From an uncultured Porphyromonadaceae bacterium (GTDB lineage: Bacteria; Bacteroidota; Bacteroidia; Bacteroidales; Muribaculaceae), in assembly GCA_947643665.1 (NCBI GenBank), contig CANRWW010000017.1:1-53925 (forward strand): 53,925 bases of DNA. Direction: 5' to 3'. Shown here piece after piece: positions 17,391 through 53,845 of the stretch. Numbering within the stretch: the stretch's first letter is position 1; each line of letters starts with the position of its first letter. The notes under the pieces were generated by a model. That model was not told the origin of the DNA and ran no database searches. It saw only the letters and a list, made by a program, of their open reading frames with translations. The translations under genes were made by a program, and so were the position numbers.

Positions 17391-17511
17391 TTTCAATAAA
17401 TATTACGCAGCACCAGAAGATACACAACCACTGTATGCCGCGAATTACAATACGCAATACATTAAAACATAACTTATAAGCAATCACTGCGACGTAATAT
17501 GCCGCAAACTG

Positions 17512-18396: not shown

Positions 18397-18480
18397 TTCC
18401 ACCTAATTACAAAGTATTATAATGTGTGTCTACGCAATACAACAATAAAAACATCCTCCCCCCACATTGTAAACCTATTG

Positions 18481-20800: not shown

Positions 20801-20815
20801 TTTATCCTTAAAGGC

Positions 20816-22626: not shown

Positions 22627-22647
22627 ATATTATTTATTATTCGTCTA

Positions 22648-23433: not shown

Positions 23434-23439
23434 TTTTTC

Positions 23440-24714
23440 TTATTTTATACTTCTGATATTATTTCCAGACAACCTAAATGTATTGCCAGAAATGTAATTT
23501 CCCGGATTATGCAAGAAAAAAAGACTCCACCAAAAAGTCAGATAACTTGTAGAAGGGACAGAAGATATATTCAACAACAAACTTAAATAAAGACCCAAAT
23601 ACAAACTTTTGTCAGGACGTTGAACAATCTGACGAAACGTCACTACCAGAAGCACCAAAAAAGCACTTAAAGCAAAAATTCCTTCTTGCAGGAGAATCCC
23701 AAAGAACGTATTGTGTACAGGATTATCGGCAATCTGTTTATAATCCTGTATCTCCTCCGGATTGTGATCAGCACCGATTCCGGAAAAAACATATGAAGGA
23801 TTCCTTTCAAACACCCTGAATGTAGCTTTTATCTGTCCAACACGCGGATCGTTCTGAATAAGCCCACCGGAACTTCTTGAGGAAATGTGTTTTGTAAAAC
23901 GGCGTTCAACTCCATCCAACATATATGAATAACTTCCATAACCGGCAACCAATAGCGCACTTCCTGCAACTGCAAGAACCATGAAACTTCTTTTTGATTT
24001 CTTATACAGGAAAATTAAATAAAACAGAAACAAAACTGCTAACGAAATCAAGCCCATACGAGACTGACCTACCAGAAACAACGGTAATGTAGCAATAATA
24101 GACGCAATGGATAAAACGCGCCAGAACATTCCGGTTTCTTTCCGATGTATGAATATCATGTTCAAAACAATCAGAAGCTCCAGACTTATTGCGAGATAGT
24201 TAGGATCTCCTGAGAAGCCGCCATATCTAACCCAACCCACATAAGTCAAAGGATTGGCAAATACATAGTAGGTCACCATAATTGCCGGTGATAGTTTTGC
24301 GATCACTGTTATGGTGTGGTAAAGATCCACCTTCCTTATCTTATTAAAACAAAACACACCTAGAGATATACGAATCAATGGTGATGAAATTCCCTTGGGA
24401 TATATTCCTGTCAAAACATCGGAAAGTGCCACAAAAACTACAAATACTGCTAATATTCGGTCTATATTATCCCATTTGCTTTTGACAAAGAAGCTACAGA
24501 GCAATGTTATAGCACACGGAACATAAAATGCCTTCTCCACAGGAAGCCATTCCGCATGTGCATAGTAAAACATTATAAGGGATGTTGCAGCAAAAAACAC
24601 ATACAGCGAAGACGCTATATGTTTCTTAGCGGCATGTTCTCTTTTGTAACCGGAACTATCAATACAATAACGATTACCCACGCGATTGCTTTTATTTATA
24701 ATTGATGTGTTCAT
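23440..24714 (-). CDS. O-antigen polymerase/ligase-like membrane protein (second copy)
   Basis: A 424-residue polytopic inner-membrane protein with about ten to twelve hydrophobic segments. A large periplasmic loop (about 280-350) ends in VHNTFFGILLQEG, the Wzy_C/O-antigen ligase pattern. Other anchor motifs are GDPNYLA and SRMGLISLAVLF. It is a clear but diverged paralogue of the protein encoded just upstream (24711-25904): shared positions include the GDPNYLA, HNTFF and FWW..FFL blocks. Its ATG overlaps the upstream stop (ATGA), so the two are translationally coupled. One may be the Wzy polymerase and the other a ligase, but the sequence does not decide. Confidence 0.85.
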   Translation of the reverse strand: MNTSIINKSNRVGNRYCIDSSGYKREHAAKKHIASSLYVFFAATSLIMFYYAHAEWLPVEKAFYVPCAITLLCSFFVKSKWDNIDRILAVFVVFVALSDVLTGIYPKGISSPLIRISLGVFCFNKIRKVDLYHTITVIAKLSPAIMVTYYVFANPLTYVGWVRYGGFSGDPNYLAISLELLIVLNMIFIHRKETGMFWRVLSIASIIATLPLFLVGQSRMGLISLAVLFLFYLIFLYKKSKRSFMVLAVAGSALLVAGYGSYSYMLDGVERRFTKHISSRSSGGLIQNDPRVGQIKATFRVFERNPSYVFSGIGADHNPEEIQDYKQIADNPVHNTFFGILLQEGIFALSAFLVLLVVTFRQIVQRPDKSLYLGLYLSLLLNISSVPSTSYLTFWWSLFFLHNPGNYISGNTFRLSGNNIRSIK

Positions 24715-25904
24715 ACAGTTGCCTCTCTTTGTCCACCTACTAAAAAGAATATGCCCCACCAAAAAATAAGCGAAGTCAGAGAGGGTATTGAATTCATGTT
24801 TAGAATAAAAGCTATAAGAAGCCCGATTTTTATATATGATCCTTGCAAAAAGACTTTTTTACATATGCAGAATAAAAAATACACAAAAACAAGTCCCCCT
24901 ACTACCCCGAGATGGAGCAATGCCTGAAAAAATGTATTGTGAACACAATGATGCGCAAGCAACCCATATTCCGGAAGGTCAACAGCTCTGGCATCCAAAC
25001 CTATTCCGATCAACAAATCGGTTGGATTAGCGATAAAGTATTGCAGCACTCCATATATCTGACTAAAACGTGATGTGATTGAATTTATGCCTGTACGGTC
25101 AGATATCGCAAATCGCGAAAGCGGATAATCACCTGTATTTATTACAAACAATCCTATTACAACCAAAGATATGGCACAGACGGACAAGACTGCAAGGTAA
25201 CGCGTAAGACGTTTTTGCAAAATGTAATATATGAAAAACAAATACAACAGAATCAATCCTGTCAGTCCTATCCGCGACATTGTTGCTATTACGATCAAAC
25301 TGCATATCAATAAAACTGCCCACGACAAACATTGCTCTCTTAAATTATGTGAGCCTGATATCCGGCACATATTTAAAGCAACTATAAGTGTAATCCCCAT
25401 TGCCAGATAATTGGGATCACCCGTATAAGCCATATACCTATGTTGCGACAATAACGGAATCTCTATAATCAAAAAACCGAGCATCAACGGTACAGACAAG
25501 TTACTTACCAGGTTTGTAAACCTGGTAGCATCACATTTACGTATCGCATTGAAACATGCGATACCGAATATAAAGCGGACTGTAGGGGAAGTGAGGCTAA
25601 ATGACAAATTTCTGTTAACAAGAGCCGCCACTAATGCACATATGACCATGAGACACAACAGCCCATCCATACGATCACGTTTGAATCCACAGAAAAAAGA
25701 ACATAACATAGACAGTCCACACGGAATATAAAAGATCTTTTCCATTCCCGACTGAGGATGCCCGAAAAAATAAAACAGCAGAGCCATAGATGCAAAAAGC
25801 ACATATAGCTTTCGCCACAACAGGTCTCCTTTTAATTTGGAAATTACCGAGTGGAAAACACACGTTATATTCATACTCCGATACACGGGATACTTACATG
25901 ACAT
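24711..25904 (-). CDS. O-antigen polymerase/ligase-like membrane protein (first copy)
   Basis: A 397-residue polytopic inner-membrane protein of the Wzy/WaaL type. It has repeated hydrophobic helices, a GDPNYLAMG motif near residue 165, SRIGLTGLILLY, a periplasmic loop with HHCVHNTFFQALLHLG, and IFWWGIFFL at the C-terminus. Polymerases of this group join flipped repeat units in the periplasm. Two starts are possible. The ATG at 25904 overlaps the end of the flippase gene by 11 bases. A later ATG at 25874 would shorten the protein by ten residues. The tandem paralogue downstream suggests duplication within the locus. Confidence 0.83.
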   Translation of the reverse strand: MSCKYPVYRSMNITCVFHSVISKLKGDLLWRKLYVLFASMALLFYFFGHPQSGMEKIFYIPCGLSMLCSFFCGFKRDRMDGLLCLMVICALVAALVNRNLSFSLTSPTVRFIFGIACFNAIRKCDATRFTNLVSNLSVPLMLGFLIIEIPLLSQHRYMAYTGDPNYLAMGITLIVALNMCRISGSHNLREQCLSWAVLLICSLIVIATMSRIGLTGLILLYLFFIYYILQKRLTRYLAVLSVCAISLVVIGLFVINTGDYPLSRFAISDRTGINSITSRFSQIYGVLQYFIANPTDLLIGIGLDARAVDLPEYGLLAHHCVHNTFFQALLHLGVVGGLVFVYFLFCICKKVFLQGSYIKIGLLIAFILNMNSIPSLTSLIFWWGIFFLVGGQREATV

Positions 25905-27339
25905 TATTGCGTACACCTAATTTCTGCATGACGTAACGGAGAGATGCCGATTTGAAAAGATACGCCATAGAAACATATATCAGTACAAATACAACACCTG
26001 TTACAATAAGCCTTGGCCATGGATCCCACATTATCTGATCTCGTATGAGATAAGTTATCGAAAATGCGATGGCAAGTGATAAAACCGTAGAAAATATATT
26101 TTTAAACTGATGCCACAACGTACAGTCAACCAATTTTCCTGAAAAATAACTTACAAATATCGCATTGAAAAGATTATAACCGATCAATATCTGCAACAGT
26201 ACATCAATCGAAAATTGGATGCCTACAAGAAGACTTAGCACAAAAACTATTTTTCTTATTATCTCTATTACCAGTACCCAACGGCTTTTCCCACGTACCA
26301 ACAATACATCCATGTTAATATCCGCAAAACAATAGATAGCGCCGATCACACACATATATTGGAAATAATGTGCGGCCTCTCCCCACTCTGCGGGTAATAT
26401 AGCAGCAAAAAGATCATGCGACTCAATCAAAAGATATAGCATTATTGGTGATATTATAAAAAATGCCATATCAACAACTTTTTGGCTATAATACCGCAAA
26501 CGCGCTATATCATCTTGGAATTCAGCCATTACAGGATATGACACCCTATGTATGGAAAATGACAGCGTTCCTGCTACAGATGTCTGTAACTTATTGGGAA
26601 TAGTATAATTTCCTAATACAGCTGCCGAGTAAGCCTTCCCTATAAACATATTTGGAAGATTATCCGTTATAGCCGCAATTATGTTAGCACCAAGCAAGTT
26701 AAGAGAAAATCCTAGATACTTCCTCACACTTGACCAATTGAAACGCTCACTTGGAAACCATTTTCCCACTATCCACAATTGTGTGGAGCGTAATATCGCA
26801 TATGTCAGGTTTTGTGCGACTAATGCCCATACACTTTTATAAATCACAGCAACTGTTATGCCGATTACACCTGAACAGACAACAGATATCAATGAAATCT
26901 GGGAGACTCTCTTGAAATCTATCTTTTTAAAAAGTTGCGCTTGCTGCACTACCCCAAGCGACATAAAAACTATCGCAAGAAAAGCCCAACGCACAAGCGC
27001 CACAAGTACAGGTTCATTATAAAAGTCTGCTATCAAAGGCGCACTGAAAAAGAATGTCAGATATATGCCGCATCCCATCAATACATTGAAATAGAATACA
27101 GAAGAATACTCCTGCTGGCTGACCGTTTTTTCACGGATCAATGCCTGTGAAAAACCTGCATCAACAAGAATGCCACTGAAAGCCAAAAATATTGACATCA
27201 TCCCAATAAGACCGAACTGCGACGGATCCAAAAATTGTGCTATCACCAATGTGCACAACAATTGTACCCCTATAGTGGAAAAACGTTCCACCATACTCCA
27301 TATCGTTCCCTTAAATGTCTTACTTCCAGATGAGGACAT
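25894..27339 (-). CDS. Wzx-type polysaccharide flippase (MOP superfamily)
   Basis: A 481-residue membrane protein with about 12-14 transmembrane helices. It starts with KTFKGTIWSMVERFSTIGVQ, typical of the WzxC/TuaB-like branch of polysaccharide exporters, followed by FLDPSQFGLIGM and SQALIREK. It moves the undecaprenyl-linked repeat from the cytoplasmic to the periplasmic face. The ATG at 27339 follows the upstream stop by one base. An upstream ATG at 27378 would overlap the kinase gene and is less likely. The protein itself is complete. Confidence 0.9.
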   Translation of the reverse strand: MSSSGSKTFKGTIWSMVERFSTIGVQLLCTLVIAQFLDPSQFGLIGMMSIFLAFSGILVDAGFSQALIREKTVSQQEYSSVFYFNVLMGCGIYLTFFFSAPLIADFYNEPVLVALVRWAFLAIVFMSLGVVQQAQLFKKIDFKRVSQISLISVVCSGVIGITVAVIYKSVWALVAQNLTYAILRSTQLWIVGKWFPSERFNWSSVRKYLGFSLNLLGANIIAAITDNLPNMFIGKAYSAAVLGNYTIPNKLQTSVAGTLSFSIHRVSYPVMAEFQDDIARLRYYSQKVVDMAFFIISPIMLYLLIESHDLFAAILPAEWGEAAHYFQYMCVIGAIYCFADINMDVLLVRGKSRWVLVIEIIRKIVFVLSLLVGIQFSIDVLLQILIGYNLFNAIFVSYFSGKLVDCTLWHQFKNIFSTVLSLAIAFSITYLIRDQIMWDPWPRLIVTGVVFVLIYVSMAYLFKSASLRYVMQKLGVRNNVM

Positions 27340-27340
27340 A

Positions 27341-29821
27341 TTACGATTTGTTGAATGATATCTTATTGCTGTAGCCATACCCGTAAGCGTACCCGTAGGT
27401 GGAGCGGAGGGAACCGAGGTGGGAGGTGTCGGTGCCGTTGAGTATTACGGCCATGTTGCGGTAACGGCGGGTGTCGTAGAAGTGCTGTATCTGTGGGAGC
27501 ATCTCACGCTCAAGCAGGCCGGCACGTATCACGAACAGGGTCATGTCGGCATAGGAATTAATGATCTTGGCATCGGCCACCACCTCTACAGGCGGACAGT
27601 CAAGCAGCACATAGTCATAATGCCCGCGCAGATAATCAAGCATATTTCTCAGACGGGGAGAATACAGCAGTTCTGCGGGGTTTGGCGGCAGTGCGCCTAC
27701 CGGTATTATATCAAGCCCGTCGGTATCGTTGGCATTGCGGACTACTATCTCATCAAGGGCGGCATGTCCGGAAAGATAAGCGCTAACTCCTTTGACCGGA
27801 TTCTTGACATAACTGCTGAGGGAAGCCTTGCGCAGATCAAGATCCACAATAGCCACCTTATGGTTCTTTATGGCAAGCGCGGTGGCGAGATTCATCGTGA
27901 TGAACGTCTTGCCTGATCCCGGATTCGCCGAAGTGACCATTATGGTATGCGCACCGGTAGCCTCTCCGTCAACCATAAGTTCGAGATTGGTACGTATCAC
28001 ACGGAATGCCTCGTTGATTATGTCTGACGAACCTTGTCGCACCACCACAATGCGGCGGTCGCGTTCATTGTCATGCGCCGGACGCAATCTGGCAAAACCA
28101 TGACGGCGACGGTACCCCAACGGTATCTCTCCGACAAAAGGCAACGAAAGCACCTCAATGTCCTTGCGCCCTCTCACGCGGGTATTGAGCAGCTCGCTCA
28201 GATATATGGCGCCCATCGGGAGAAGAAGACCCAGAAGCACAGCCACTGCCATCACATTGCGGCGGTTAGGGGAAATAGGGTTATCAGAACCCATAGGCGG
28301 AGTGACCATCCGCGAGTTGTATGCCGTAAACGCCTGGCTCAACTCGTTTTCCTCACGTTTCTGGAGCAAATACAGATACAGGCTCTCTTTTACCTTCTGC
28401 TGACGCTCCACACTTAACAGATAACGGGCTTGGGTCGGGTTGGCCTGGAGACGCGACGAAGCTGCCGCCTGCGAGTTGCGGGCAGTAGTCACCGCCGAAT
28501 TGAGGGTCACCACATAATTGTCAATACTCTGGATTATGGCCTCGCGCATACCCTTTAGCTGGCTGTCCATATCAATCACCAGCGGATTCTCCGTAGAAGA
28601 GTTCTCCACAAGGTTGTTACGCTCAAGCAATCGGGTGTTGTAAGCCGCGATCTGGTTTTCGATATTGAGATTCTCTATGCCGGAATTGGCAGGAAGCACA
28701 TTGAAGGTATTGGCGGAATTGCCGAGATACGAACGGATATACCGAGCCATGGCCAGGCGGTTGTTAAGTGCGGCCACCTCGTCGTCAGCGGCGGCGGCAC
28801 GGCTTATGTACAACTGTGAGGCCTGCTCCACATCCGGAACCATATGGGTGGACTTATACGTAGATATATCGGAATCCACATTGCCCAGCTCGCTTTCTAT
28901 TACCGCCAGACGATCCTTTATAAACTCCGATGTGGAAACCGCGATACGGTTCTTGTCCTGTATCCAGTTTTCATTATACACATCTATCACCCCCGACAGC
29001 AGGTCCTCGGCACGCTCGGGACTTACATCAGAATATCTCAACGTAATTATAGATGCATAATCCTCAGGCGCGTCTGCGATAAGCGCCTTGGAAAGTGCGG
29101 CAGCAGTCTTTTTCAAAGGAGTGCGGCTCACTTGCATGACCAGCGGTTTGGCAAGTTTTCCACCGGCATAAGTGGCACCTGGAGCCACAGCCACACGCCC
29201 GAACGGTGTCTGGAGCGTATCTATGCGGTCATATCTGCCTGCGACCGGAGCCACACCCTCCATCTCACCGTCGGCAGACTCAAATCCACGCAGGATCAAA
29301 GATCCGTCCGGATCTGCGACAGCCTCGAAAGCTGCCGTGCCGTTCTCCCCGAGATCCGGAAAGGTGAAACGCAGCGGAAGATTTGTCCCGTAAAGGGCAT
29401 TGTCATGGAAAGTGCCTTTTTCAGAATAATCCACATCAAGGCCGAGGCGCTTCACCACTTCCGCCATTACCGTAGGCGAAGTGATTGTAGCAAGCTCATT
29501 GAGCACATTGGTATTAGGCTGAAGAAAACCTATACCTGAAAAAGAAGCCCCTACATCGCCACCTGCAGTGCCACCCAGACGGTCATCCTTGATAAGCAAC
29601 TGGGTGGAACGTTCATATACGGGAGAGGTCCGAAGTATGTAATATACCCCGAGACCACAACATATTATCAACGAAATTACAAACCAATACCACCGGCTGA
29701 GGCACAACCACATGAGATCCTTGATCTTCAAAGTTGGCTCAGAAACGGCTGCAACTACCTCCGGCGAGGGTTGCTGGACGCTATCGTACACACGAGAATC
29801 AGACATATATGTCATCAGCAT
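27341..29821 (-). CDS. Chain-length regulator fused to tyrosine autokinase (Wzc type)
   Basis: An 826-residue inner-membrane protein. An N-terminal Wzz-like domain begins after the first transmembrane helix (WYWFVISLIICCGLGVYYIL, about residues 44-63). A long periplasmic coiled-coil follows (about 290-510), then a second membrane helix (about 540). The C-terminal cytoplasmic BY-kinase has Walker A NPGSGKT (about 635), Walker A' VDLDLRK, and Walker B YVLLDCPPV. The tail is a tyrosine cluster (STYGYAYGYGYS), the expected autophosphorylation site. It sets polymer length and drives export with the Wza protein encoded upstream. A start at the in-frame ATG 15 bases downstream (29806) is equally possible. 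Confidence 0.93.
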   Translation of the reverse strand: MLMTYMSDSRVYDSVQQPSPEVVAAVSEPTLKIKDLMWLCLSRWYWFVISLIICCGLGVYYILRTSPVYERSTQLLIKDDRLGGTAGGDVGASFSGIGFLQPNTNVLNELATITSPTVMAEVVKRLGLDVDYSEKGTFHDNALYGTNLPLRFTFPDLGENGTAAFEAVADPDGSLILRGFESADGEMEGVAPVAGRYDRIDTLQTPFGRVAVAPGATYAGGKLAKPLVMQVSRTPLKKTAAALSKALIADAPEDYASIITLRYSDVSPERAEDLLSGVIDVYNENWIQDKNRIAVSTSEFIKDRLAVIESELGNVDSDISTYKSTHMVPDVEQASQLYISRAAAADDEVAALNNRLAMARYIRSYLGNSANTFNVLPANSGIENLNIENQIAAYNTRLLERNNLVENSSTENPLVIDMDSQLKGMREAIIQSIDNYVVTLNSAVTTARNSQAAASSRLQANPTQARYLLSVERQQKVKESLYLYLLQKREENELSQAFTAYNSRMVTPPMGSDNPISPNRRNVMAVAVLLGLLLPMGAIYLSELLNTRVRGRKDIEVLSLPFVGEIPLGYRRRHGFARLRPAHDNERDRRIVVVRQGSSDIINEAFRVIRTNLELMVDGEATGAHTIMVTSANPGSGKTFITMNLATALAIKNHKVAIVDLDLRKASLSSYVKNPVKGVSAYLSGHAALDEIVVRNANDTDGLDIIPVGALPPNPAELLYSPRLRNMLDYLRGHYDYVLLDCPPVEVVADAKIINSYADMTLFVIRAGLLEREMLPQIQHFYDTRRYRNMAVILNGTDTSHLGSLRSTYGYAYGYGYSNKISFNKS

Positions 29822-29908
29822 TATATCGGTAGAGCCATCACGGTCTGCCGACGATTAATATTGGAAACAGATTTTTATGATAAAAACAGACGCAATAAAC
29901 CGCTGTGC

Positions 29909-30733
29909 TTATTTCCAGATAAGCACAGCTATGGTTGTTGCAAGAGAGGCTATTGAAATCCAGAACGACGGAGTAAGCGGCGCATTTCCGTTTGCCGTAG
30001 TCTGTCGCTTGCGCACATCGTTTGGCGAAACATATATCACGTCATCCTGCTGCAGATAAAATACCGGACTTTGCACCGTCTGGGCAGAATTTGTGAGGTC
30101 CACCCTATATGCCATCTGGCGGCCATCCTCAATACGGGTCACAAGCACATCCTTGCGCTGCCCCTGGATAGTGAGGTCTCCGGCACCGGCCAAAGCATCA
30201 AGTATGGTAAAACGGTCGCGGTCAAAATTCACCCTGCCGGGCTTGTTGACTTCACCGAGTACAGTCACCCCGTGGTTAAGAAAATCTACCACCACAACAG
30301 GATCCTTGATCTGTTTACGTGCGATAAGCTCATCACGGATATAGTCTGCTACCTCGTTGCGGCGCATGCCTTCTATATGCAACGTGCCCAATTGCGGAAA
30401 CTGTATGTCACCGTTGTTATCAACAACATATGAGGCGACCTCATTGTTGCCTTTGCTCGGAGACGTCGTCACACCCGGCTGTCCCACACGATGAGCCATC
30501 ATCGGAAGATTGTACAGAGCCGCAAGTTGCGGATCTTTTGACACCACAAGGATTGACAGACGGTCGTCAGGGCGCACCGTTATATCCTTGACTGAATTGA
30601 TTTCCTGTATCGCACCTGCTTCAAGTTCGCTGAAGTAGGTCACATCCCGCGGTGAACGGCAAGAACTTATTGCGCCGGCCAGAACTATGGCTGAGCACAA
30701 TGACAAAAGGCACCTTGATTTTTTTAAATACAT
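29909..30733 (-). CDS. Wza-type polysaccharide export lipoprotein
   Basis: A 274-residue outer-membrane lipoprotein. The signal ends LAGAISSC with the lipobox Cys at about residue 25. A Poly_export domain follows (ITVRPDDRLSILV onward, about 48-150) with the YVVDNNGDIQFPQLG repeat motif, then an SLBB-type segment (GEVNKPGRV, about 175-225). A C-terminal hydrophobic helix (FWISIASLATTIAVLIW) could span the outer membrane, as in Wza. It forms the export channel that works with the tyrosine kinase encoded 87 bases downstream. Confidence 0.92.
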   Translation of the reverse strand: MYLKKSRCLLSLCSAIVLAGAISSCRSPRDVTYFSELEAGAIQEINSVKDITVRPDDRLSILVVSKDPQLAALYNLPMMAHRVGQPGVTTSPSKGNNEVASYVVDNNGDIQFPQLGTLHIEGMRRNEVADYIRDELIARKQIKDPVVVVDFLNHGVTVLGEVNKPGRVNFDRDRFTILDALAGAGDLTIQGQRKDVLVTRIEDGRQMAYRVDLTNSAQTVQSPVFYLQQDDVIYVSPNDVRKRQTTANGNAPLTPSFWISIASLATTIAVLIWK

Positions 30734-30786
30734 AAATTATTGTTTGTCCACACAAAAGATTCCGTGAAACACCAATTTCACAGACG

Positions 30787-30823
30787 CGCCATTCCACCCG
30801 GACAGAGTCAAGGTGGAATGGCG
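30787..30823 (-). terminator. Hairpin between the wecA-like and wza-like genes
   Basis: Perfect 12-bp stem CGCCATTCCACC/GGTGGAATGGCG (30787-30798 with 30812-30823) with a 13-base loop, 40 bases downstream of the WecA-like stop and inside the capsule operon. It could end part of the transcripts. UpxY-type antitermination would be expected to read through it. Confidence 0.55.
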
Positions 30824-30863
30824 TATGTCGTAAGGCATATCGCCCCAGACACATCCATGTCTG

Positions 30864-32033
30864 TCACTCGTAGCCGTGAGTGATGCCAAGACGTGCCTGA
30901 CGGCTTTTTATCAGACGCGTAAGCGTATAATTCACCAACACCCAGAATACCAGGTCGGCAATAAGCACCACAGCCGGGCCTACAAACCGCCCCAGCCAGA
31001 TATTCAATCCTATCAGAGCCGCTGAAGTGCACAATATGGTAATCATCGTCAGACGGTGGGGAATACCAAGCGCCAGCAATTTATGGTGTATGTGGGTCTT
31101 GTCGGGGAGGAACGGGCTTTTACCGCGGAGAATACGATGCACGAACACCCTCAATACATCCATACAAGGTATTGCCAGCGGTGCGAAAGCCACCACCATT
31201 ATATTTGAGGAGATCACGCTGCCATCCATTATATAAGTAGTCTTTATGGCCAGAAAAGAGAGAAGCAAGCCAATGGTCAGCGCACCGGTATCACCCATGA
31301 AAATCTTTTTCTGCATCACAGGATTACCGAATACATTATAATAGAAGAACGGAACCAAGGTTCCCAGTCCGGCGAAAGCCAGAAGGGCATAAATCCAATT
31401 TCCGGCCGAAAGGAATGCCAGACCGTAAAAAGCCATTGCTATGCCGCTGAGGCCGGAAGCAAGTCCGTCAATACCGTCAATAAGATTTATGGCATTGGTG
31501 ATATATACAACAAGCAATATGGTAAGCCCCCATGCCAAAGGCCATGGCAACTCATAAAAGCCCAGCATGCCATGAAGATTGTCAATCCGCACCCCGCCAA
31601 GGGCGAGCAGGCATGCGGCAATGATCTGGGCGATGAATTTCGCGGAATACCTTACACCAATCAGATCGTCTGCAATACCTACAAGATACATGACCATCAT
31701 ACTGCACAATCCGAAACTCAAAGGTAGAAAACGTGATACAAGCTGCGCACGGGCTCCTAATCCATGCACATCAAGGGAGAGGCCAAAATGCATATGTATA
31801 CCTTCGGAACCGAGAAGTACTTCTATGCCAATTACAAAGCAAAGAGAAAAAATAATCGATGGCATAAAAGCAATACCACCGAGGCGGGGAACCGCCGCAG
31901 TATGGATCTTACGTTCATCCGGTTCGTCAAACAGACGCTTGCGAAAAGCGATAAGGAGAATTTTAGGAATGATGATACCTGCAAGTATTGCACTTATGAG
32001 AAATACTGCCAATCCATCTAATGTAAACTGCAT
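30864..32033 (-). CDS. WecA/MraY-family undecaprenyl-phosphate sugar-1-phosphate transferase
   Basis: A 389-residue polytopic membrane enzyme of the GT4-phosphotransferase family. Eleven or so helices carry the signature GIADDLIG (metal-binding Asp pair, about residues 100-107), NAINLIDGIDGLASG (about 175-190), and FMGDTGALTIG, with HIHHKLLALG in the C-terminal cytoplasmic loop. It loads the first sugar phosphate, probably GlcNAc-1-P or a related HexNAc, onto undecaprenyl phosphate and so starts the capsule repeat. The start MQFTLDGLAVF is chosen because the 38 residues that could precede it are charged and lie in the region after upxY. Confidence 0.93.
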   Translation of the reverse strand: MQFTLDGLAVFLISAILAGIIIPKILLIAFRKRLFDEPDERKIHTAAVPRLGGIAFMPSIIFSLCFVIGIEVLLGSEGIHMHFGLSLDVHGLGARAQLVSRFLPLSFGLCSMMVMYLVGIADDLIGVRYSAKFIAQIIAACLLALGGVRIDNLHGMLGFYELPWPLAWGLTILLVVYITNAINLIDGIDGLASGLSGIAMAFYGLAFLSAGNWIYALLAFAGLGTLVPFFYYNVFGNPVMQKKIFMGDTGALTIGLLLSFLAIKTTYIMDGSVISSNIMVVAFAPLAIPCMDVLRVFVHRILRGKSPFLPDKTHIHHKLLALGIPHRLTMITILCTSAALIGLNIWLGRFVGPAVVLIADLVFWVLVNYTLTRLIKSRQARLGITHGYE

Positions 32034-32130
32034 GTGCACTTGTTTTTTTTGGTTAAGACTTTTTGATGTGTGTGATCTATTATATTTAGTGACATTACCA
32101 GTTACCGGCCATGTTGCAACAAGTAACCGT

Positions 32131-32688
32131 TTATGGCAATCGTTCAAGAAAAGATGCGGGAATATACGAAGTGGCTACAGCGCATATTCCACTTATTGAC
32201 ACTACAAGACGCCTATTGCCACGTATACGCCTGATAAAACCTTCAGCCCCACGGAACGGGCCTTGAAGAACCCTTACACGCTGGCCGACAGAATAATCGG
32301 CAACGCTATCGGAAAGATATTCCAAACCATTGGCCTGCGCAGACGTAACCAAACGGAACATCAGCATCTCACGCTCTGGAATTACGGCGGCAGAACCATC
32401 CGCAGACGGGTAAAACATCGCATGGCCGTTTATTATCTCCCGGATCTGTTTGATACGGCAACCTGCCACTTTCAAAAAGAGCAGACCTGCTATGGCAGGC
32501 TGCATATGGACAAGTTTCCTGCCGTCAGATGCTACCGTCACAACTTCCTTTTGGGGAACATAGCATTCACAATCGCCCAAAGCGTCCAGACGGGCCTCTA
32601 TTGCCGAGACCTTGTTATGGAAAACTTTCAATGCATACCAGTTCTCCCCGCTCTCTGCAAGAGAAAACTGCGACATAAAAGACGACAT
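32131..32688 (-). CDS. UpxY-family transcription antiterminator (NusG-like)
   Basis: A 185-residue NusG/RfaH paralogue. The NGN domain begins NWYALKVFHNKV (about residue 15 of this version), and the KOW-like motif is VGQRVRVLQGPFRGAEG (about 137-153). UpxY proteins head Bacteroidales capsule operons and let RNA polymerase read through termination signals in the long leader and operon. This one is first in a 13-plus gene operon that agrees with that role. The start is uncertain. The ATG at 32688 gives normal length, but an in-frame ATG at 32775 is preceded by GGGGGA and would add a hydrophobic N-terminus. Confidence 0.88.
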   Translation of the reverse strand: MSSFMSQFSLAESGENWYALKVFHNKVSAIEARLDALGDCECYVPQKEVVTVASDGRKLVHMQPAIAGLLFLKVAGCRIKQIREIINGHAMFYPSADGSAAVIPEREMLMFRLVTSAQANGLEYLSDSVADYSVGQRVRVLQGPFRGAEGFIRRIRGNRRLVVSISGICAVATSYIPASFLERLP

Positions 32689-32692
32689 GGAT

Positions 32693-32779
32693 TTATCCAG
32701 AGGCAAAATAACCGTAAAAGCACTGAGTGTTAGTAAGATATACAGAGAGAAGAGCAAGCGGGAAATATAATTCATACAT
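32693..32779 (-). other. Possible 28-codon leader ORF before upxY
   Basis: An ATG at 32779 opens a 28-codon frame (MYELYFPLALLSVYLTN onward) that stops with TAA four bases before the proposed upxY ATG. GGGGGA stands immediately upstream. The frame overlaps the alternative longer upxY start at 32775 in a different frame. Either a leader peptide or an artefact. Confidence 0.3.
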
Positions 32780-33028
32780 TCCCCCAAATCCCGGAAACGA
32801 AAATTTCGAATCCGGCAAATGAGGCGGCACACCCGAAGCAAGTCCGCTATATCATCAAATTATGTATGGCAAACATTATGTAACTATCCAGCAAAAGCTG
32901 TCATTGATTTTGTGCCATAATATTGATGTGTCGGACGTTAAGCTACACTACGAATCCGCAGTTCACTCACACTTCTCCATATTGCCGATGGAATCTTAAG
33001 TAAAAAAGATACCGACGCAATACGTCTG

Positions 33029-43273: not shown

Positions 43274-43532
43274 ACAACTTTTCAGTCCCATTGTTAAAAT
43301 ATTTGTCTGGAGAGACATTCCCTGCCATTATTCAACTATTATGAACAGATACAGATTGTATTACGGGAAATAATTCATACATTTGCGGTAATTTGCCGGG
43401 GAAGTTTCTGCCATATATCTCAGGCCACTGGCCTAAGTGCATGATTACAGACCGGAAATTAGTCTGAATCGTTGCCAAAAACATGCAACTGATCAAAATA
43501 TAAGACTGTTCATCAGCAAAGAAGTTTATTCG

Positions 43533-45359
43533 ATGGGATTGTATAAGAAAAAAAATATAGCCTTGGGAGCTTTCGGGAGATTGATATTTCCAGAAAACCT
43601 CTGGACAAGGGAGTTCCTGTTGGCATGGGCCGGATGTTTCCTTACAGTTATAGTCTTTGACCTGCTATGGTGTGCCCAAACCACATTCCGTGCATTCAGC
43701 TTTGCCGGCACATATATCAACGCCTTCACACTGTCAATCGCCCTTTCGTTACCTACCGTACTAAGCAGGCGCATATGGCCCCAGATCACAGCAATGGCCA
43801 TAGTTGATCTTCTGATGATCGCCAACCTGATGTATTGCCGCACCTATTTCAACTCGATTCCGCCGGCAAGCTATATGTTTATACGCCAGGTATTTGATTT
43901 TCATACCAGTATCGCCGACTCTTGGAGTTGGCGATACCTTGCGTTACCCGCGGTAACGCTCCTCACACTTATGCTGATGCATACCGACAAGGAAAAACGA
44001 CGCCCGTCCCTTATACTTTATCTTGCAGCAGCAGGAGCGGCATTATTCCTGTCAGCCATGTCAGCGCTGTTTGCCGGAGGCCTTACATCACACGTCGCCA
44101 AACTTAAAGGAGAGTGTTATTATGCCACAACACCGCCCGTAGTGTACACGTTGTTCGGAACTCTTGCCGCTGAAATGTCAACGCGTCAGAGCGAGATTAC
44201 CGAAACAGACCGCCATGAAGTGGCAAAATGGGGAAAAGAGCATCTCCACCTGCAAAGCATGATACATTCCCCTATAGCGGAATCAGACAGCCTGCGGCGT
44301 GACAACCTTGTTGTCGTCATATGTGAATCACTGGAGTCATGGCCCATTGGAGCGCGGCTTGAAGGCAAGGAACTTACCCCACAGCTCAACGCCGCAATGG
44401 CAGATACGGCTTCGACATGGTACGCGAATCATGTATTGTCACAAGTCGGAAACGGACGCAGTATTGACGGCCAGTTGTTGATGCTAGCCGGAATATATCC
44501 GATGCGCAATGATGTATATTCAATGAAATATCCTGAAACGCGATTCTTTGCACTTCCGGAGGCCATGAAAGAGCAAGGTGCCGCGACATATCTGCTCAGT
44601 GGCGACAAACCTTCTACATGGAACCAAGGGCTTGTCGCCCGGAATTTCGGTATAGAGAAACAGGAAATGGCCGACAGCTGGGACAATTCTGAACGCATAG
44701 GCCATCCAAAACGTCTCAGCGACGGCTCACTTATGGAACAATCCATCGCCAAGATGCAACGTGGCGAGATATGGCCGGAAGGTGAAAAAGCATATGTGCA
44801 GATCGTTACTTACACCGGCCACAATCCTTTCAAAATACCAGAGAAATTCAAAACCATCAGTTTTTCCGGCAACTATCCTGAAAAACTTACCGATTATCTG
44901 ACTACGGTGCACTATACGGACCAGGCTCTCGGACGGCTGCTTGACTATCTGAAAAGCCGGCCTGACTGGCACCGCACAATGGTTGTCATCGTTGGTGACC
45001 ATGAGGCCCTGGCGTCATGGCGTCACGAAATGCGCAACTCAATTGAAGGACGGAAACTTGTATCCCCCTCGGGATACGTGCCAATGATTGTGCTAAATTC
45101 TCCGGTACGGGGATACCGCACAAGTGTAATGGGACAAGTTGACGTATACACCACGTTACTTGAACTTATGGGACTTCCATACCACTGGCGTGGAATGGGA
45201 TTCTCGGCGCTCGCACCCGAAAGTCCGCGATTCGCGTTCGATTTTCAGGGATCAATGGAGGGCACAACAGCCGGAGCGCTTCCCGGCATGAAAGAACATG
45301 TTGCCTCATCTCCCGGAATATCAGATCTTATGATACGCCATAATTTAATAAACAAATAA
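43533..45359 (+). CDS. LtaS/phosphoethanolamine-transferase-like membrane protein
   Basis: A 608-residue inner-membrane protein of the alkaline phosphatase superfamily. Five transmembrane helices (about residues 25-210) precede a periplasmic catalytic domain. That domain has VVVICESLESWP (metal-binding Glu, about 260), then NGRSIDGQL where the phosphothreonine-type nucleophile normally sits, and VVIVGDHEAL (about 515) with the second metal site. Relatives move phosphoglycerol or phosphoethanolamine from membrane lipids to glycans or lipid A. The nucleophile position appears to be Ser rather than the usual Thr. The cardiolipin synthase gene follows 20 bases downstream, so a role in lipid head-group traffic is plausible. 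Confidence 0.82.
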   Translation: MGLYKKKNIALGAFGRLIFPENLWTREFLLAWAGCFLTVIVFDLLWCAQTTFRAFSFAGTYINAFTLSIALSLPTVLSRRIWPQITAMAIVDLLMIANLMYCRTYFNSIPPASYMFIRQVFDFHTSIADSWSWRYLALPAVTLLTLMLMHTDKEKRRPSLILYLAAAGAALFLSAMSALFAGGLTSHVAKLKGECYYATTPPVVYTLFGTLAAEMSTRQSEITETDRHEVAKWGKEHLHLQSMIHSPIAESDSLRRDNLVVVICESLESWPIGARLEGKELTPQLNAAMADTASTWYANHVLSQVGNGRSIDGQLLMLAGIYPMRNDVYSMKYPETRFFALPEAMKEQGAATYLLSGDKPSTWNQGLVARNFGIEKQEMADSWDNSERIGHPKRLSDGSLMEQSIAKMQRGEIWPEGEKAYVQIVTYTGHNPFKIPEKFKTISFSGNYPEKLTDYLTTVHYTDQALGRLLDYLKSRPDWHRTMVVIVGDHEALASWRHEMRNSIEGRKLVSPSGYVPMIVLNSPVRGYRTSVMGQVDVYTTLLELMGLPYHWRGMGFSALAPESPRFAFDFQGSMEGTTAGALPGMKEHVASSPGISDLMIRHNLINK

Positions 45360-45379
45360 TATTGTAACGCATAAACACG

Positions 45380-46822
45380 ATGTTCTGGTTCTTTGACTAC
45401 ATAACCGTGCCATGGGTGTATTGGACAGTATGGATCCTATACTCCCTCACTATTTTCGGCATAATAGCGGTTATTGTAAGCGAGAACCGAAACCCTGTGA
45501 AATCGCTCGCATGGGTCACCGTACTGCTGGTGGTGCCGATCGTGGGACTGGTGTTATATATCGTCTTCGGCAGGAACATACAGACAAAACGCATAATCTC
45601 CAGGCGCAACCGCCGGAAGCTGAGAAAACTCAATGCCACTACAGCTTCAAAAACCAAAAAAACCGACTGCCCGCCACATCAGACCAGACAAGTCAATCTG
45701 GCACAGTCGCTGTGCAGTTCCACCCTGCATACCGGCAACGAGGTGACACTTTTTGACAACGGTACAGACAAATTCAACTCACTCCTTGCAGACATTGCTG
45801 CCGCACGCCGGTATATCAACCTTCAATATTATATCATAATAGATGACAACATCGGCAACCAGGTGATCAACGCTTTGACAGAGCGGGCACAAGCCGGTGT
45901 GAAAGTGAGGGTGATCTATGACCATGTAGGGTCTTTCAAACTTTCACGCAAAGCCTGCCGACGCATGAAAGAGGCCGGCATAGAAGCATATCCGTTTTTC
46001 AAAGTCGTATTTCCACCATTCGGCACCCGTATCAACTGGCGCAATCACCGCAAACTCGCCATTATTGACGGCGAGATAGGTTATATCGGCGGAATGAACA
46101 TTGCCGACCGTTATGTGACGGGGGGCAAACTATTTGATACATGGCGCGACCTGCATCTACGTGTGCGGGGACCTGCCGTCGGTGCGCTCCAGCAATCGTT
46201 TGCCGTGGACTGGAATTTCATGGGACAGCCCCTCATAGAAGAGGAAGCCGGCACAGAGATTGACACTGAATTTCCGGCAAACATGCAACTTGTGACAGGT
46301 GGACCGACCTCACAATGGATGAATATGACACTCATTTTTCAGCATGCCATATCCTCGGCACAGAAATGCGTGTATATCATGACCCCCTATTTCATCCCGT
46401 CAGAAGGATTGCTTCATGCCCTGCAAGTAGCGGCACTGGGAAAGGTGGATGTGCGCGTCATGCTGCCATACCGGTCAGACAGCGATATGCTGCGATGGGC
46501 ATCATTCTCATATATACAGGATTGCCTTAGGGCTGGGATAAAAGTATATCTTTATAAAAAAGGGATGCTCCACAGCAAAGCGATAATAATAGATGATGAT
46601 TTCGCTACCGTCGGCTCAACCAATTTCGATTTCCGTAGTTTCGAGCACAACTTCGAGGCCAACATGCTTATCTACTCCCAGGAGTTTAACAGCCGCATTA
46701 AATCTCAGTTCATGCGCGACCAGAAGGAATGCGAACGCGTCACCGCCGTCACATGGCGGCAGCGTCCACTTCTCGAAAAATCCCTTGAATCATTCATGCG
46801 CCTTTTCTCCCCCATCCTTTAG
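45380..46822 (+). CDS. cls: Cardiolipin synthase
   Basis: A 480-residue phospholipase D superfamily enzyme that condenses two phosphatidylglycerols into cardiolipin at the inner membrane. Two N-terminal helices (about residues 10-60) include the PLDc_N segment VIVSENRNPVKSLAWV. The two HKD motifs are NHRKLAIIDGEIGYIGGMN (about 225) and LHSKAIIIDDDFATVGSTN (about 400). It follows the LtaS-like gene closely and ends with a four-base overlap with the convergent queA. Confidence 0.94.
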   Translation: MFWFFDYITVPWVYWTVWILYSLTIFGIIAVIVSENRNPVKSLAWVTVLLVVPIVGLVLYIVFGRNIQTKRIISRRNRRKLRKLNATTASKTKKTDCPPHQTRQVNLAQSLCSSTLHTGNEVTLFDNGTDKFNSLLADIAAARRYINLQYYIIIDDNIGNQVINALTERAQAGVKVRVIYDHVGSFKLSRKACRRMKEAGIEAYPFFKVVFPPFGTRINWRNHRKLAIIDGEIGYIGGMNIADRYVTGGKLFDTWRDLHLRVRGPAVGALQQSFAVDWNFMGQPLIEEEAGTEIDTEFPANMQLVTGGPTSQWMNMTLIFQHAISSAQKCVYIMTPYFIPSEGLLHALQVAALGKVDVRVMLPYRSDSDMLRWASFSYIQDCLRAGIKVYLYKKGMLHSKAIIIDDDFATVGSTNFDFRSFEHNFEANMLIYSQEFNSRIKSQFMRDQKECERVTAVTWRQRPLLEKSLESFMRLFSPIL

Positions 46823-50750: not shown

Positions 50751-50812
50751 GGAAAATAAATCGCAATTAAAGTAAAACCACCGGACTCAAGTCCAGACCC
50801 AGTCAGATTATG

Positions 50813-50835: not shown

Positions 50836-51426
50836 TTACAACCTATGAGGATGATCCGCAATGGCAAGCATGGCGTCATCTCCAGAAGAATCCCCGTAAG
50901 CCCACACGTCACAACTGTCAATATCATTGATTTCTTTACTGATACGCCTCACCTTCTCCACTCCATGGCAATTAGGAGTAAGAAAACGACCTGTAAGAAT
51001 GCCCGTTGACGCATCAATTTCAGGTTTGGTGGCAATCACATTTCGTATTCCATATCTTCTCGCCCATGGAATAATCCACCTGTCAATACTTGCGCTTACT
51101 ATATAAATATCATCTCCGGAACAACGATGGCTATCCAAAACGGCTATACCTTCCGGTCTTATATCTCTGTCTACAACAGAAACGAAACTATGAGCTTTCT
51201 CATCAAAATATGATAACGGCATGCCTCTATACAGGCACCCGAATAAACGTTCTTTTGCTTTGGAATTTGACAGGATACCACATTTCCATCCTACAATCCA
51301 AGGCAATGACCAACACATAGCCCAAAAGAATTTCCTGCGTCCTACAGCATGAACGGCAAAAGTAACCAAAGTGTCATGGCGTGTCAGAGTGCCGTCAAAA
51401 TCAAACAATGCAACCTTACGTTTCAT
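50836..51426 (-). CDS. HAD-IB phosphatase of a polyprenyl-phosphoribose module
   Basis: A 196-residue haloacid-dehalogenase phosphatase. The nucleophile Asp9 and general acid Asp11 lie in LFDFDGTLT. The core continues with IVSASIDRWI (motif II) and AYGDSSGDDAML (motif III, metal-binding Asp). Similarity is to the HAD-IB/phosphoserine-phosphatase branch, with a helical cap in between. It is the last gene of the operon headed by the GT-C-like gene. Its ATG overlaps the transporter stop (TGATG), which is tight coupling. The context suggests it removes the 5-phosphate from polyprenyl-phospho-5-phosphoribose, a step done by other phosphatases in actinobacteria. Confidence 0.85.
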   Translation of the reverse strand: MKRKVALFDFDGTLTRHDTLVTFAVHAVGRRKFFWAMCWSLPWIVGWKCGILSNSKAKERLFGCLYRGMPLSYFDEKAHSFVSVVDRDIRPEGIAVLDSHRCSGDDIYIVSASIDRWIIPWARRYGIRNVIATKPEIDASTGILTGRFLTPNCHGVEKVRRISKEINDIDSCDVWAYGDSSGDDAMLAIADHPHRL

Positions 51427-51779
51427 CAACTCCTTGATATAAATAACACACCTGCCATTATAAACAACAATCCTGCTATCTTCATGGCATTTAATTCCTC
51501 ACCAAGCATAAAATATCCCAATAACACCGCTATTACATAACCGAAACTTACCATGGGATACGCTTTGCTCAAATCAAGGCGCGATAGCACTACAAGCCAT
51601 AATAAGAAACTTAATGCATAACATAACACACCAGCGATGAAATTCCAGTTGAACAATATCCTTTTTCCGGCTTCAAAAACATCATTACTGACGACAGTAC
51701 CACCGACGCCTATCTTCAAACAATATTGGGCCACAGCTCCCAACACTATGCTTACCAATGCTACGACATATACCATCAT
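51426..51779 (-). CDS. Small EamA/SMR-family transporter, probable lipid-linked sugar flippase
   Basis: A 117-residue four-helix membrane protein of the small multidrug resistance/EamA type. It has YVVALVSIVLGAVAQYCLKIG in helix 1 and a SKAYPMVSFGYVIAVLLGYFMLGEELN signature in helices 3-4, like ArnE/ArnF-type flippases. Such proteins move undecaprenyl-phosphate-linked sugars to the periplasmic face. It lies between a UbiA-family synthase and a HAD phosphatase, with gaps of about six and minus one bases. Flipping of a polyprenyl-phospho-pentose is therefore the likely role. It is inferred, not shown. Confidence 0.85.
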   Translation of the reverse strand: MMVYVVALVSIVLGAVAQYCLKIGVGGTVVSNDVFEAGKRILFNWNFIAGVLCYALSFLLWLVVLSRLDLSKAYPMVSFGYVIAVLLGYFMLGEELNAMKIAGLLFIMAGVLFISRS

Positions 51780-51785
51780 ATAAAG

Positions 51786-52673
51786 TCAGAGATACAATAT
51801 TATTGCAAATACGAAAAGCCAACACAAGATACAATACTGTATAAACCGGTCTTTCATCAATATCTTTGTCGGGCTTCCACTTTTAAGGTCCACGATAGAA
51901 ACCTGCAGATAACGTAAAATACCTGCCAATACAAATATTGACGTAACAAATACATAACCGCTACCCAAGCGATGCTCCACTTCGGGCGACACAGTATAGA
52001 TTATATAACATACGATGGTTATGGAGCCGATTATACCCAAAACCTGATTCATAAACGGGATGTTATACCTGAGTATATTTTTCCGTGATACGACCCCGGT
52101 AGTATCATGCAACACTACATCATCCCTACGCTTAGCAAATGCCAGAAAAAGAGCTAACAGGAAAGTCATACATATGATCCATGGAGACAGCCATATATCA
52201 CATGCCACTCCACCACTTATAAGACGCAACACAAAACCAAGTGACACAATAAACACATCTACAATTGCATATTGTTTTAACTTCAGACAATACAATATGT
52301 TCAACACCAAATACAACACCAGTATAAAAGCGACATCTAAGTTATGAACCCCATTTCCTAACAATGGTATTGAAAGTGCACCGAATATAAGACACACCAT
52401 TATGGCATAAGCACTTTTTACTGAGACATCTCCCGACGCAATCGGCCTAAAACGTTTTCGCGGGTGTGCCCTGTCCGCCTCCACATCCCTTATATCGTTA
52501 AGGCAATATATCGAACTTGCCATCAGCGAGAATGCTAGAAAAACCCATAACGCAGCTTTCCAACACTCCATATCCAGTAATTCCCCTCCGAAAAACAACG
52601 GGACAAAAACAAAACCGTTTTTTACCCACTGCGTAGGCCGAAGCAAACGCAATATAGATTTCACCTTATTCAT
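51786..52673 (-). CDS. UbiA-family prenyltransferase resembling decaprenyl-phosphate phosphoribosyltransferase
   Basis: A 295-residue membrane enzyme with about nine helices. It starts with LRPTQWVKNGFVFVP (residues 11-25). The first Asp-rich prenyl-phosphate and metal motif is NDIRDVEADRAHP (59-71), then RKRFRPIASG. The second conserved cytoplasmic loop is AFAKRRDDVVLHD. These resemble the DPPR synthase of mycobacteria (Rv3806c), which makes decaprenyl-phospho-5-phosphoribose from PRPP for arabinofuranose donors, more than they resemble quinone or haem prenyltransferases. The ATG overlaps the stop of the upstream gene (ATGA). Substrate identity is an inference. Confidence 0.88.
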   Translation of the reverse strand: MNKVKSILRLLRPTQWVKNGFVFVPLFFGGELLDMECWKAALWVFLAFSLMASSIYCLNDIRDVEADRAHPRKRFRPIASGDVSVKSAYAIMVCLIFGALSIPLLGNGVHNLDVAFILVLYLVLNILYCLKLKQYAIVDVFIVSLGFVLRLISGGVACDIWLSPWIICMTFLLALFLAFAKRRDDVVLHDTTGVVSRKNILRYNIPFMNQVLGIIGSITIVCYIIYTVSPEVEHRLGSGYVFVTSIFVLAGILRYLQVSIVDLKSGSPTKILMKDRFIQYCILCWLFVFAIILYL

Positions 52674-53845
52674 ACGATAGCTCCAATTAAAGATTTAGCA
52701 AACATGATGACCCCATTAAAAAAAGATGCATATACACTCTGTTTTATCGCTCCATAAACATCAAAATAACACGGTGGCACAGCAAACAAAAGAAGTATCA
52801 AAATCATAATTCCTTTGGTAGGCACTATCACCTGATCTATCTTATTGTTAAGTACCGCAACAAGCTCATATATTTTCTTCGGAAGAAGTTTGGACAGGCG
52901 CCATCTCGGGAAAAGCAGAAAAGCAGTAAAAGCAGAAACGACGGCATATTGGTACAAACGTGCATAATCACAACTCAGAAACAGGAACATCGGCAACATG
53001 CACACAATTGAAAACAAAAACAGAACTGAAAGATTTGTCCTGTCATCCTTATTAAATGAATTCCTTTCCCGGAATACCCAAAGGAAGTTGACCACAAAAT
53101 AATATGTTATTAAAAATCCCAGGGGTCTTATGAAAAAAGTTACCCATCCCAACATCCCAGAGAAATTCAACCTGATATGGCCTCGTATCGCGGCCAACGT
53201 ATCCCACCCGATAGCTCCTATGCTATTGTTTTTCTCAATATGCATGGCATTCTCGCCAAGTAGTTCCTGCCATGAAACCACAATCGAACTTACATGTTGC
53301 ATGGAACCATGGTATACTGACAAAAACAGAAACACACCTATAATAACAAGAGAAAAACTTATTCCTTGCTTAGATTTTAAATTACCATTAAAGAGCAACA
53401 ATGCGACAATAGGTAATCCCCAAAAAACAAAGGCCTCATGCATAAAAAGCCCCAGTGACGAAATTATAACCACGGCCGATATTTTTGCATTTCCCATCTT
53501 GCCGTTGGCCAACAACAGCATTATCAATATAAGCAGACAGTAAAGCATGTAATCCTTTCTGATTATATCACCTACATACCCGCAAAACAATGGTGACAGA
53601 ATCAGAAACCAGCAATAATTCCTGGATCGGAACTTCTTTAAAAAGAAATATACGACGAACAGATAGGCACTTATACATACCGGGAGAATGAAAGCCGCAG
53701 GCTCCAAACCGGTATATCTGCATAAATGATACAAGATCTCGCCCAACAATCCCCGTCTTACGAATCCTCCCTGAAAGTTTATCATAAATTCAGAGTAACT
53801 CCAGTCATTATAGTTAAATGACGACGCTCTTATGCCTAAGGCCAC
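52670..53845 (-). CDS. GT-C-like polytopic membrane protein, probable lipid-sugar-dependent glycosyltransferase
   Basis: A polytopic inner-membrane protein of about 391 residues with eight to ten hydrophobic helices. The N-terminal periplasmic-type loop is YNDWSYSEFMINFQGGFVRRGL, a pattern seen in uncharacterised GT-C-like proteins of bacterial surface glycan loci; the Asp in NDW is a candidate catalytic residue. The start is doubtful. The only standard start is GTG at 53845, but the reading frame is open upstream to 53911 and encodes a further helix-like stretch (GLLLCAIVSLVERLYVALG) that lacks ATG, GTG or TTG. It is coupled (ATGA) to the UbiA-like gene. Its role as the user of the flipped donor is inferred from context. 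Confidence 0.72.
   Translation of the reverse strand: MALGIRASSFNYNDWSYSEFMINFQGGFVRRGLLGEILYHLCRYTGLEPAAFILPVCISAYLFVVYFFLKKFRSRNYCWFLILSPLFCGYVGDIIRKDYMLYCLLILIMLLLANGKMGNAKISAVVIISSLGLFMHEAFVFWGLPIVALLLFNGNLKSKQGISFSLVIIGVFLFLSVYHGSMQHVSSIVVSWQELLGENAMHIEKNNSIGAIGWDTLAAIRGHIRLNFSGMLGWVTFFIRPLGFLITYYFVVNFLWVFRERNSFNKDDRTNLSVLFLFSIVCMLPMFLFLSCDYARLYQYAVVSAFTAFLLFPRWRLSKLLPKKIYELVAVLNNKIDQVIVPTKGIMILILLLFAVPPCYFDVYGAIKQSVYASFFNGVIMFAKSLIGAIV

Follow-up and report, generated by a model that had tools for sequence, protein, structure and literature searches.

The 53,925-nucleotide contig CANRWW010000017.1 (C17) of an uncultured Muribaculaceae bacterium (assembly GCA_947643665.1), the whole of which is referred to here as the window, closes with four minus-strand genes that we consider likely to encode a three-component system for pentofuranose addition. 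They specify a GT-C-like protein (P0001), a UbiA-family protein (P0002), an SMR protein (P0003) and a HAD-IB protein (P0004). In the proposed mechanism P0002 would form polyprenyl-phosphate-ribose-5-phosphate from phosphoribosyl pyrophosphate (PRPP) and polyprenyl phosphate, P0004 would take off the 5'-phosphate to give undecaprenyl-phosphate-beta-D-ribofuranose, and P0003 would flip the lipid-linked ribofuranose to the periplasm. P0001, with an acidic residue in its first periplasmic loop, would then transfer the ribofuranose to a surface glycan or glycolipid, in alpha linkage if it is inverting as in Citrobacter. The sequences and models support the UbiA and HAD families, the GT-C-like fold, gene linkage and genome co-occurrence, whereas we infer the enzyme activities, the identity of lipid and sugar, the role of P0003 as flippase and the location outside the cell. 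A preliminary description of this DNA had read the genes as a polyprenyl-phospho-pentofuranose pathway, a reading supported at the sequence level on two of the three points at which that description saw a possible refutation, namely the closest matches of the UbiA protein and the recurring linkage described below.

Organization of the module

The genome comprises 2.6 Mb in 68 contigs and is 95.8% complete. The genes lie at 52670..53845 (P0001), 51786..52673 (P0002), 51426..51779 (P0003) and 50836..51426 (P0004). Read from the DNA, P0001 and P0002 overlap by 4 bases (ATGA), 6 bases separate P0002 from P0003, and P0003 and P0004 share 1 base (TGATG) if the HAD gene starts at the ATG at 51426; its listed start is a TTG one codon earlier, giving an open reading frame (ORF) to 51429. 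The gaps of the preliminary description (-4, about 6 and -1) were confirmed in this way as -4, +6 and -1.

The same description had called the first protein GT-C-like, and the structure model agrees with a GT-C-like fold, but the listed start of the gene calls for a correction. The P0001 frame is open for 22 codons above the listed GTG, up to 53911, and the family's first membrane helix is encoded there (GLLLCAIVSLVERLYVALGI; helix 6-30 in the model), with relatives carrying a membrane helix at the matching upstream position. The listed start is therefore probably not the true 5' end, which probably lies further upstream. Its position is unsure, since none of the 22 codons contains an ATG, GTG or TTG and the open frame is followed by just 14 more bases of contig, up to 53925. 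The extended protein has approximately 413 residues, without an extra domain.

The UbiA protein

By family, P0002 is predicted to be a polyprenyl-phosphate phosphoribosyltransferase. It matches PF01040 in Pfam and scores 226.6 bits (cut-off 207) with the NCBIfam model NF008978 for decaprenyl-phosphate phosphoribosyltransferase, while the top equivalog reaches 51.9 bits once the phosphoribosyltransferase models and NF006088, a HAD-UbiA model, are set aside. In the PDB it matches the decaprenylphosphoryl-5-phosphoribose (DPPR) synthase of Mycobacterium tuberculosis (8j8j, E 2.3e-45), in agreement with the DPPR-synthase-like character previously ascribed to it. The NDxxDxxxD loop of 8j8j is retained as N59, D60, D63 and D67 (numbering of this analysis). 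These residues correspond to N247, D248, D251 and D255 of Citrobacter ORF15, where, according to the main text of the published study, alanine substitution kills in vitro activity, with D251A partly active in vivo (Kelly et al., 2024; PMC11127046). Activity was retained after alanine substitution of R366 and E369 of ORF15, as given in the same text (Kelly et al., 2024), and the equivalents of these residues in P0002 are R182 and D185.

PF01040 also spans quinone, haem and other aromatic prenyltransferases, and P0002 could be such an enzyme with incidental neighbors. We attach a negligible probability to this explanation, in view of the distance between the above scores, the recurrence of HAD and GT-C genes next to UbiA, and the presence of a separate MenA. 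The latter lies on contig C29 (TIGR00751, 156.5 bits, cut-off 102.15) and is the only other UbiA protein of the genome above the Pfam cut-off. P0002 itself was rejected as a MenA or quinone prenyltransferase, scoring 18.3 bits with NF004751 (cut-off 264) and having TIGR00751 outside its 20 listed families.

The phosphatase and the putative flippase

The HAD-IB and four-helix SMR identities of the preliminary description are borne out by profile matches. P0004 scores 112.2 bits with the HAD-IB model TIGR01490 (cut-off 98.3), and its residues D9, D11, S113, K158 and D183 are invariant across 24 aligned sequences, namely P0004 and 23 hand-picked, partly hand-trimmed relatives (alignment A3). The Asp of the GDS motif is replaced by Asn in 4 of the 24 and is kept in the window protein. 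The P0004 model (predicted local distance difference test score 96.7) has the HAD-IB fold and among solved structures comes closest to 3fvv and phosphoserine phosphatases, a resemblance that leaves the choice of substrate undecided. As judged from its sequence, P0004 has the family and the nucleophilic Asp of three-component pentofuranose systems, and it is a putative phosphatase of lipid-linked ribose-5-phosphate.

P0003 matches both PF00892 (EamA, 40.1 bits) and PF00893 (Multi_Drug_Res) above the Pfam cut-offs. Its best NCBIfam model is ArnF (62.5 bits, below the cut-off of 99), followed by ArnE (37.7 bits, likewise below cut-off). The protein fits a putative ArnE/F-like flippase, which would act on the lipid-linked sugar. 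A drug exporter lying in the operon by chance might also match EmrE in the PDB, as P0003 weakly does (E 1.5e-4). This appears very improbable, given that multidrug SMR models score at most 26.8 bits, less than ArnF and ArnE, and that relatives of the module hold GtrA, separate or fused to HAD, in the slot of P0003. An SMR protein occupies this slot in the window and in loci L023, L110 and L135, and GtrA in L027 and L181 (fused to HAD), L029, L101, L102, L141 and a Lactococcus plasmid.

Linkage in other genomes

A scan of GTDB genomes gave 211 relatives of P0001, and all locus figures refer to the best 80 of these 211. UbiA was found within 8 kb in 28 of the 80 loci, UbiA with HAD in 22 and UbiA with a flippase in 7; in the remaining 52 no UbiA was nearby, and DprE1 was present in 3 of the 80. 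In 24 of the 28 linked loci UbiA immediately follows the GT-C gene, at -92 to +55 bases as measured from longest-ORF starts. The linkage between P0001 and UbiA is far above chance.

In the host's own family, UbiA is present in 20 of 149 genomes. Among the 19 other than the host, a HAD gene is nearby in 14 and a GT-C candidate in 13, the latter comprising two members of the P0001 family, seven GTC2, three GTC3 and one PMT_2-like protein; no SMR protein like P0003 was found near UbiA in the regions fetched from these 19. ORFs were called with a simple longest-ORF script that set some frames wrongly, and the own-family counts therefore rest on tblastn (E 1e-5, fetched regions). GTC2 and GTC3 are names coined in this analysis for large membrane proteins near UbiA that are candidate GT-C enzymes; one scanned member of each gave no Pfam match, and the GTC2 gene is on the opposite strand in two of the seven cases. 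These two UbiA-adjacent membrane families were seen, one in L036, L038, L041, L043, L044, L030 and L045 and the other in L037, L039 and L040.

Several loci join these functions in a single frame. In L037, HAD and GTC3 are continuous over 848 residues, and on a plasmid of Azospirillum ramasamyi (L192, 5486-8410) a single protein of 974 residues combines GT87, HAD and UbiA domains, with an EamA protein encoded next to it downstream. As read from their sequences, these fusions and those of HAD with GtrA (L027, L181) tie the steps of the pathway together.

In four cassettes from Prevotellaceae or other Bacteroidales (L130, L133, L137, L142), UbiA and HAD are separated by an additional membrane protein of approximately 340 residues. 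The one in L130 is an Acyl_transf_3 protein, which suggests acylation of the same glycan. In addition, L023 (MT837543.1, 1-6646), a record from human faeces named "Bacteriophage sp.", carries UbiA, HAD, SMR, an NAD epimerase, a DUF6044 protein and a probable flippase (labeled from reading); it is a bacterial-type glycan cluster and probably not phage. Carriage by phages was rejected, the one match in a phage collection being a short scaffold from faeces, unverified as phage, whose glycan genes are of bacterial type, and viral contigs scanned with P0002 alone gave no match.

Phylogeny and genome co-occurrence

The GT-C tree has 83 rows, i.e., 81 P0001-family ORFs longer than 330 residues from the best 80 loci, the window and L061. 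All 28 UbiA-labeled rows without DprE1 fall inside one branch of 50 rows (support 100/99), the rest of which consists of 19 rows without such neighbors, two rows with a GT2 gene and one with HAD only. Outside this branch are 10 of the 12 rows linked to a GT2 gene resembling dolichyl-phosphate mannose synthase (DPMS), as well as three DprE1-linked rows, with UbiA present too in two of the three. The smallest well-supported set containing the window has 15 rows, 10 of them UbiA-linked. In the UbiA tree (rows of up to 220 residues, L045 and two duplicate loci left out; rows above 340 residues cut to the last 300), the window groups with seven rows that all carry a P0001-type GT-C gene (94/93, just short of well-supported). 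All seven are within the 15-row set of the GT-C tree, while many other forks of the UbiA tree are open.

If the branch depends on UbiA, its scattered members are expected in genomes with UbiA elsewhere. This was observed in 16 of 19 such genomes at E 1e-10 and in 15 at 1e-20; the one lost (G931) has a match of 65 residues, cut off where its contig stops (1.2e-17). UbiA was not found in G937 or in the GT2-linked G933 and G946. In comparison, UbiA is present in 5 of 11 genomes of the GT2 branch (Fisher, p 0.042) and, at 1e-20, in 28 of 392 other Bacteroidales genomes (p 1e-14, the thresholds of the branch genomes and the order baseline thus differing). In the sample of the order, 4 of 5 P0001 carriers have UbiA, compared with 24 of 387 others (Fisher, p 1e-4), and the fifth carrier, G501, has none. 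The tests were performed post hoc and treat genomes as independent, ignoring relatedness. Furthermore, a Ca. Amulumruptor genome (G007) holds four scattered P0001-family genes (L057, L058, L059, L060) and a single UbiA elsewhere, so one donor may feed several transferases.

The cassette at L101 (6549-9752), from a metagenome-assembled genome labeled Clostridium sp., is nested among Bacteroidales in both trees, and the label is probably wrong.

The GT-C-like protein

No Pfam or NCBIfam family was found for P0001, and a single member among 56 aligned proteins matches PMT_2, weakly (E 0.0031). The AlphaFold2 model is of high confidence and has a GT-C-like fold. Among the 41 best VIA structure rows, 38 are GT-C enzymes, AftB and AftD included, and three are GPI transamidase, with Z below 10. 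AftB and AftD use polyprenyl-phosphate-arabinofuranose as donor. The structure alignment (A2, with 55 relatives from the best 80 loci, hand-picked and partly hand-trimmed) shows conservation of E/D41 (E41 in the extended P0001 frame), INxGGFVRRG, RxD, HE, SW and DxxR; a D-x-x-E-Y pattern is not conserved in it. Comparison by hhalign of the P0001 family with GTC2, GTC3, the GT87 part of L192, a PMT_2-like protein, DUF6044 and three Wzy-like proteins gave a probability of at most 12.1% in every case and revealed no relation. The CAZy family GT136 was founded by ORF12 of Citrobacter, with D31, E34, Y35, H106, R349 and Y350 as key residues in the main text of the study (Kelly et al., 2024). A stand-in for GT136 was sought in five plasmid loci, in which the GT87 fusion was seen but nothing recognizable as GT136. 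The P0001 family also occurs in Akkermansiaceae, Pelagibacter and Prochlorococcus.

It could be argued that P0001 works with another polyprenyl-phosphate-sugar, or is a membrane enzyme of a different kind, while some other acceptor enzyme draws on the UbiA product. Several observations count against a role of P0001 in pentofuranose transfer. Foldseek alone gave no significant match for the P0001 model, which together with the Z scores makes the GT-C assignment a moderate one. Four GT-C candidate families stand near the same UbiA within the host's own family. Finally, the 12 tree rows near DPMS-like GT2 genes (L116, L124, L125, L128, L129, L131, L132, L143, L153, L174, L177), from Bacteroidota, Verrucomicrobiota and Geomonas and several with a partner of approximately 335 residues, probably use another lipid-sugar donor. 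With relatives near GT2 or near neither gene, the P0001 family is not tied to pentofuranose donors in its entirety, and the case for such a donor is confined to the operon and branch considered here. Yet the gene stands directly upstream of UbiA in most linked loci, the branch structure and genome co-occurrence link the P0001 branch to UbiA, and the best VIA rows are GT-C-like. We thus believe this alternative to be improbable and retain P0001 as a putative pentofuranosyltransferase.

On balance, we lean toward a wider proposal. P0001 would belong to a new GT-C family, as yet unclassified, and the main branch of this family in Bacteroidota would be reserved for polyprenyl-phosphate-pentofuranose donors. 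The UbiA-HAD core would be freely combined with two flippase types and other GT-C candidates, some of them in one frame, providing a swappable ribofuranose decoration of Bacteroidales surface glycans, with Ca. Amulumruptor as a case of one donor enzyme and four scattered transferases.

The sugar and its possible acceptor

No DprE1 was found in the genome with a Bacteroidota DprE1-like protein as query or with NF053785, a model that in a control matched 10 of 14 genomes, Corynebacterium glutamicum included, one of them above the cut-off. Ribofuranose is therefore favored over arabinofuranose, and a route to the latter through DprE1/E2 was rejected on the result of these two queries. It may still be that the pathway is the same and that the sugar is epimerized before flipping, so that arabinofuranose or xylofuranose is attached. 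The P0001 family is near DprE1/DprE2 in two Prochlorococcus loci and one gammaproteobacterial locus, the three DprE1 cases among the 80. Moreover, UbiA stands with DprE1/E2 in four of eight further Bacteroidota-side regions (L179, L182, L184, L186), L179 being from G174, a genome that also holds P0001 relatives. The NAD epimerase within the UbiA-HAD-SMR run of L023 recalls the epimerase for xylofuranose of Citrobacter O2, as presented in the main text of Kelly et al. (2024), and the window itself has a short-chain dehydrogenase/reductase (SDR) at 16377-17396. Against this, no epimerase lies between the four module genes, and the genome, nearly complete, gave no DprE1. The SDR belongs to what reads as an exopolysaccharide locus; with 57% identity to an SDR of the L135 glycan locus and 27% to the L023 epimerase, it was set aside as a weak lead for a pentose epimerase. 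An epimerase beyond the contig end is possible. Overall we judge epimerization unlikely, though the most serious of the alternatives, and prefer ribofuranose as the sugar added.

A possible acceptor glycan is the product of a minus-strand run at 16377-32841, 18 kb from the module, which reads as an exopolysaccharide locus. It includes WecA-like, Wza/Wzc-like and Wzx-like genes, two Wzy-like genes, several transferases and the SDR, with labels mostly from reading (searches covered the SDR, the WecA-like gene and a single GT2). If the proposal is true, Muribaculaceae, Prevotella-type bacteria and their relatives are predicted to carry ribofuranose on their surface glycans, no report of which was found in the literature searched, and an unclassified GT-C family gains a likely donor to test.

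Elsewhere in the window, at 43437-46822, an LtaS-like membrane protein, scoring far under the cut-off for LtaS, precedes a gene that was labeled cardiolipin-synthase-like from reading. A terminator-like hairpin on the minus strand at 50781..50796, between the HAD gene and surE, is a weak candidate, since six such sites occur in the region and shuffles expect 2.7.

Comparison with known systems

The preliminary description could name no precedent for a route ending in a GT-C step, but the same steps have been published for Citrobacter youngae. According to the main text of that study, a HAD-UbiA fusion makes polyprenyl-phosphate-ribofuranose from PRPP, a four-helix EmrE/ArnE-like protein is the flippase by the authors' own proposal, and the O antigen receives alpha-ribofuranose from a GT-C enzyme, the founder of GT136, in a strategy the authors call widespread (Kelly et al., 2024). 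The pathway itself is thus not new. The main text has no word beginning with "Bacteroid", and its supplement lists further candidate species. A Bacteroidota form was not found in the literature searched, which did not extend to that supplement. What is new, as far as we found, is this form, in which the enzymes are separate, the flippase is of SMR or GtrA type and several GT-C candidates occur, the unclassified P0001 family being one of them.

The defining parts of three-component systems, i.e., a UbiA protein with the N/D residues of loop II, a HAD protein, a four-helix flippase and a GT-C last step, are all represented among the genes and models of the window. As far as the main text describes the C. 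youngae O1 system (ORF15, ORF14, ORF12), both have UbiA, HAD, a four-helix EmrE/ArnE-like flippase and GT-C, and no epimerase is seen in either (Kelly et al., 2024). In contrast, HAD and UbiA are fused in Citrobacter and separate in the window, so the steps may be assayed separately and more cleanly than with the fused enzyme. P0001 also differs from ORF12, which has a carbohydrate-binding module at 503-652, and, judging from the extent of the contig, the window module is not part of an O-antigen cluster.

The mycobacterial decaprenyl-phosphate-arabinose pathway (Rv3806c, Rv3807c, DprE1/E2, Rv3789, Aft/Emb) likewise has a UbiA protein, Rv3806c, of which P0002 is a homologue, and a GT-C last step. 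Unlike that pathway, the window's genome yielded no DprE1 and the predicted phosphatase is of the HAD type, whereas Rv3807c is described as HAD-unrelated in the main text of Kelly et al. (2024). Finally, the GtrA/GtrB/Gtr* systems of O-antigen glucosylation, as outlined in that text, share with the window module a lipid-linked donor, a small flippase and a GT-C enzyme, but their donor is made by GtrB from UDP-glucose, while that of the window would be derived from PRPP through UbiA.

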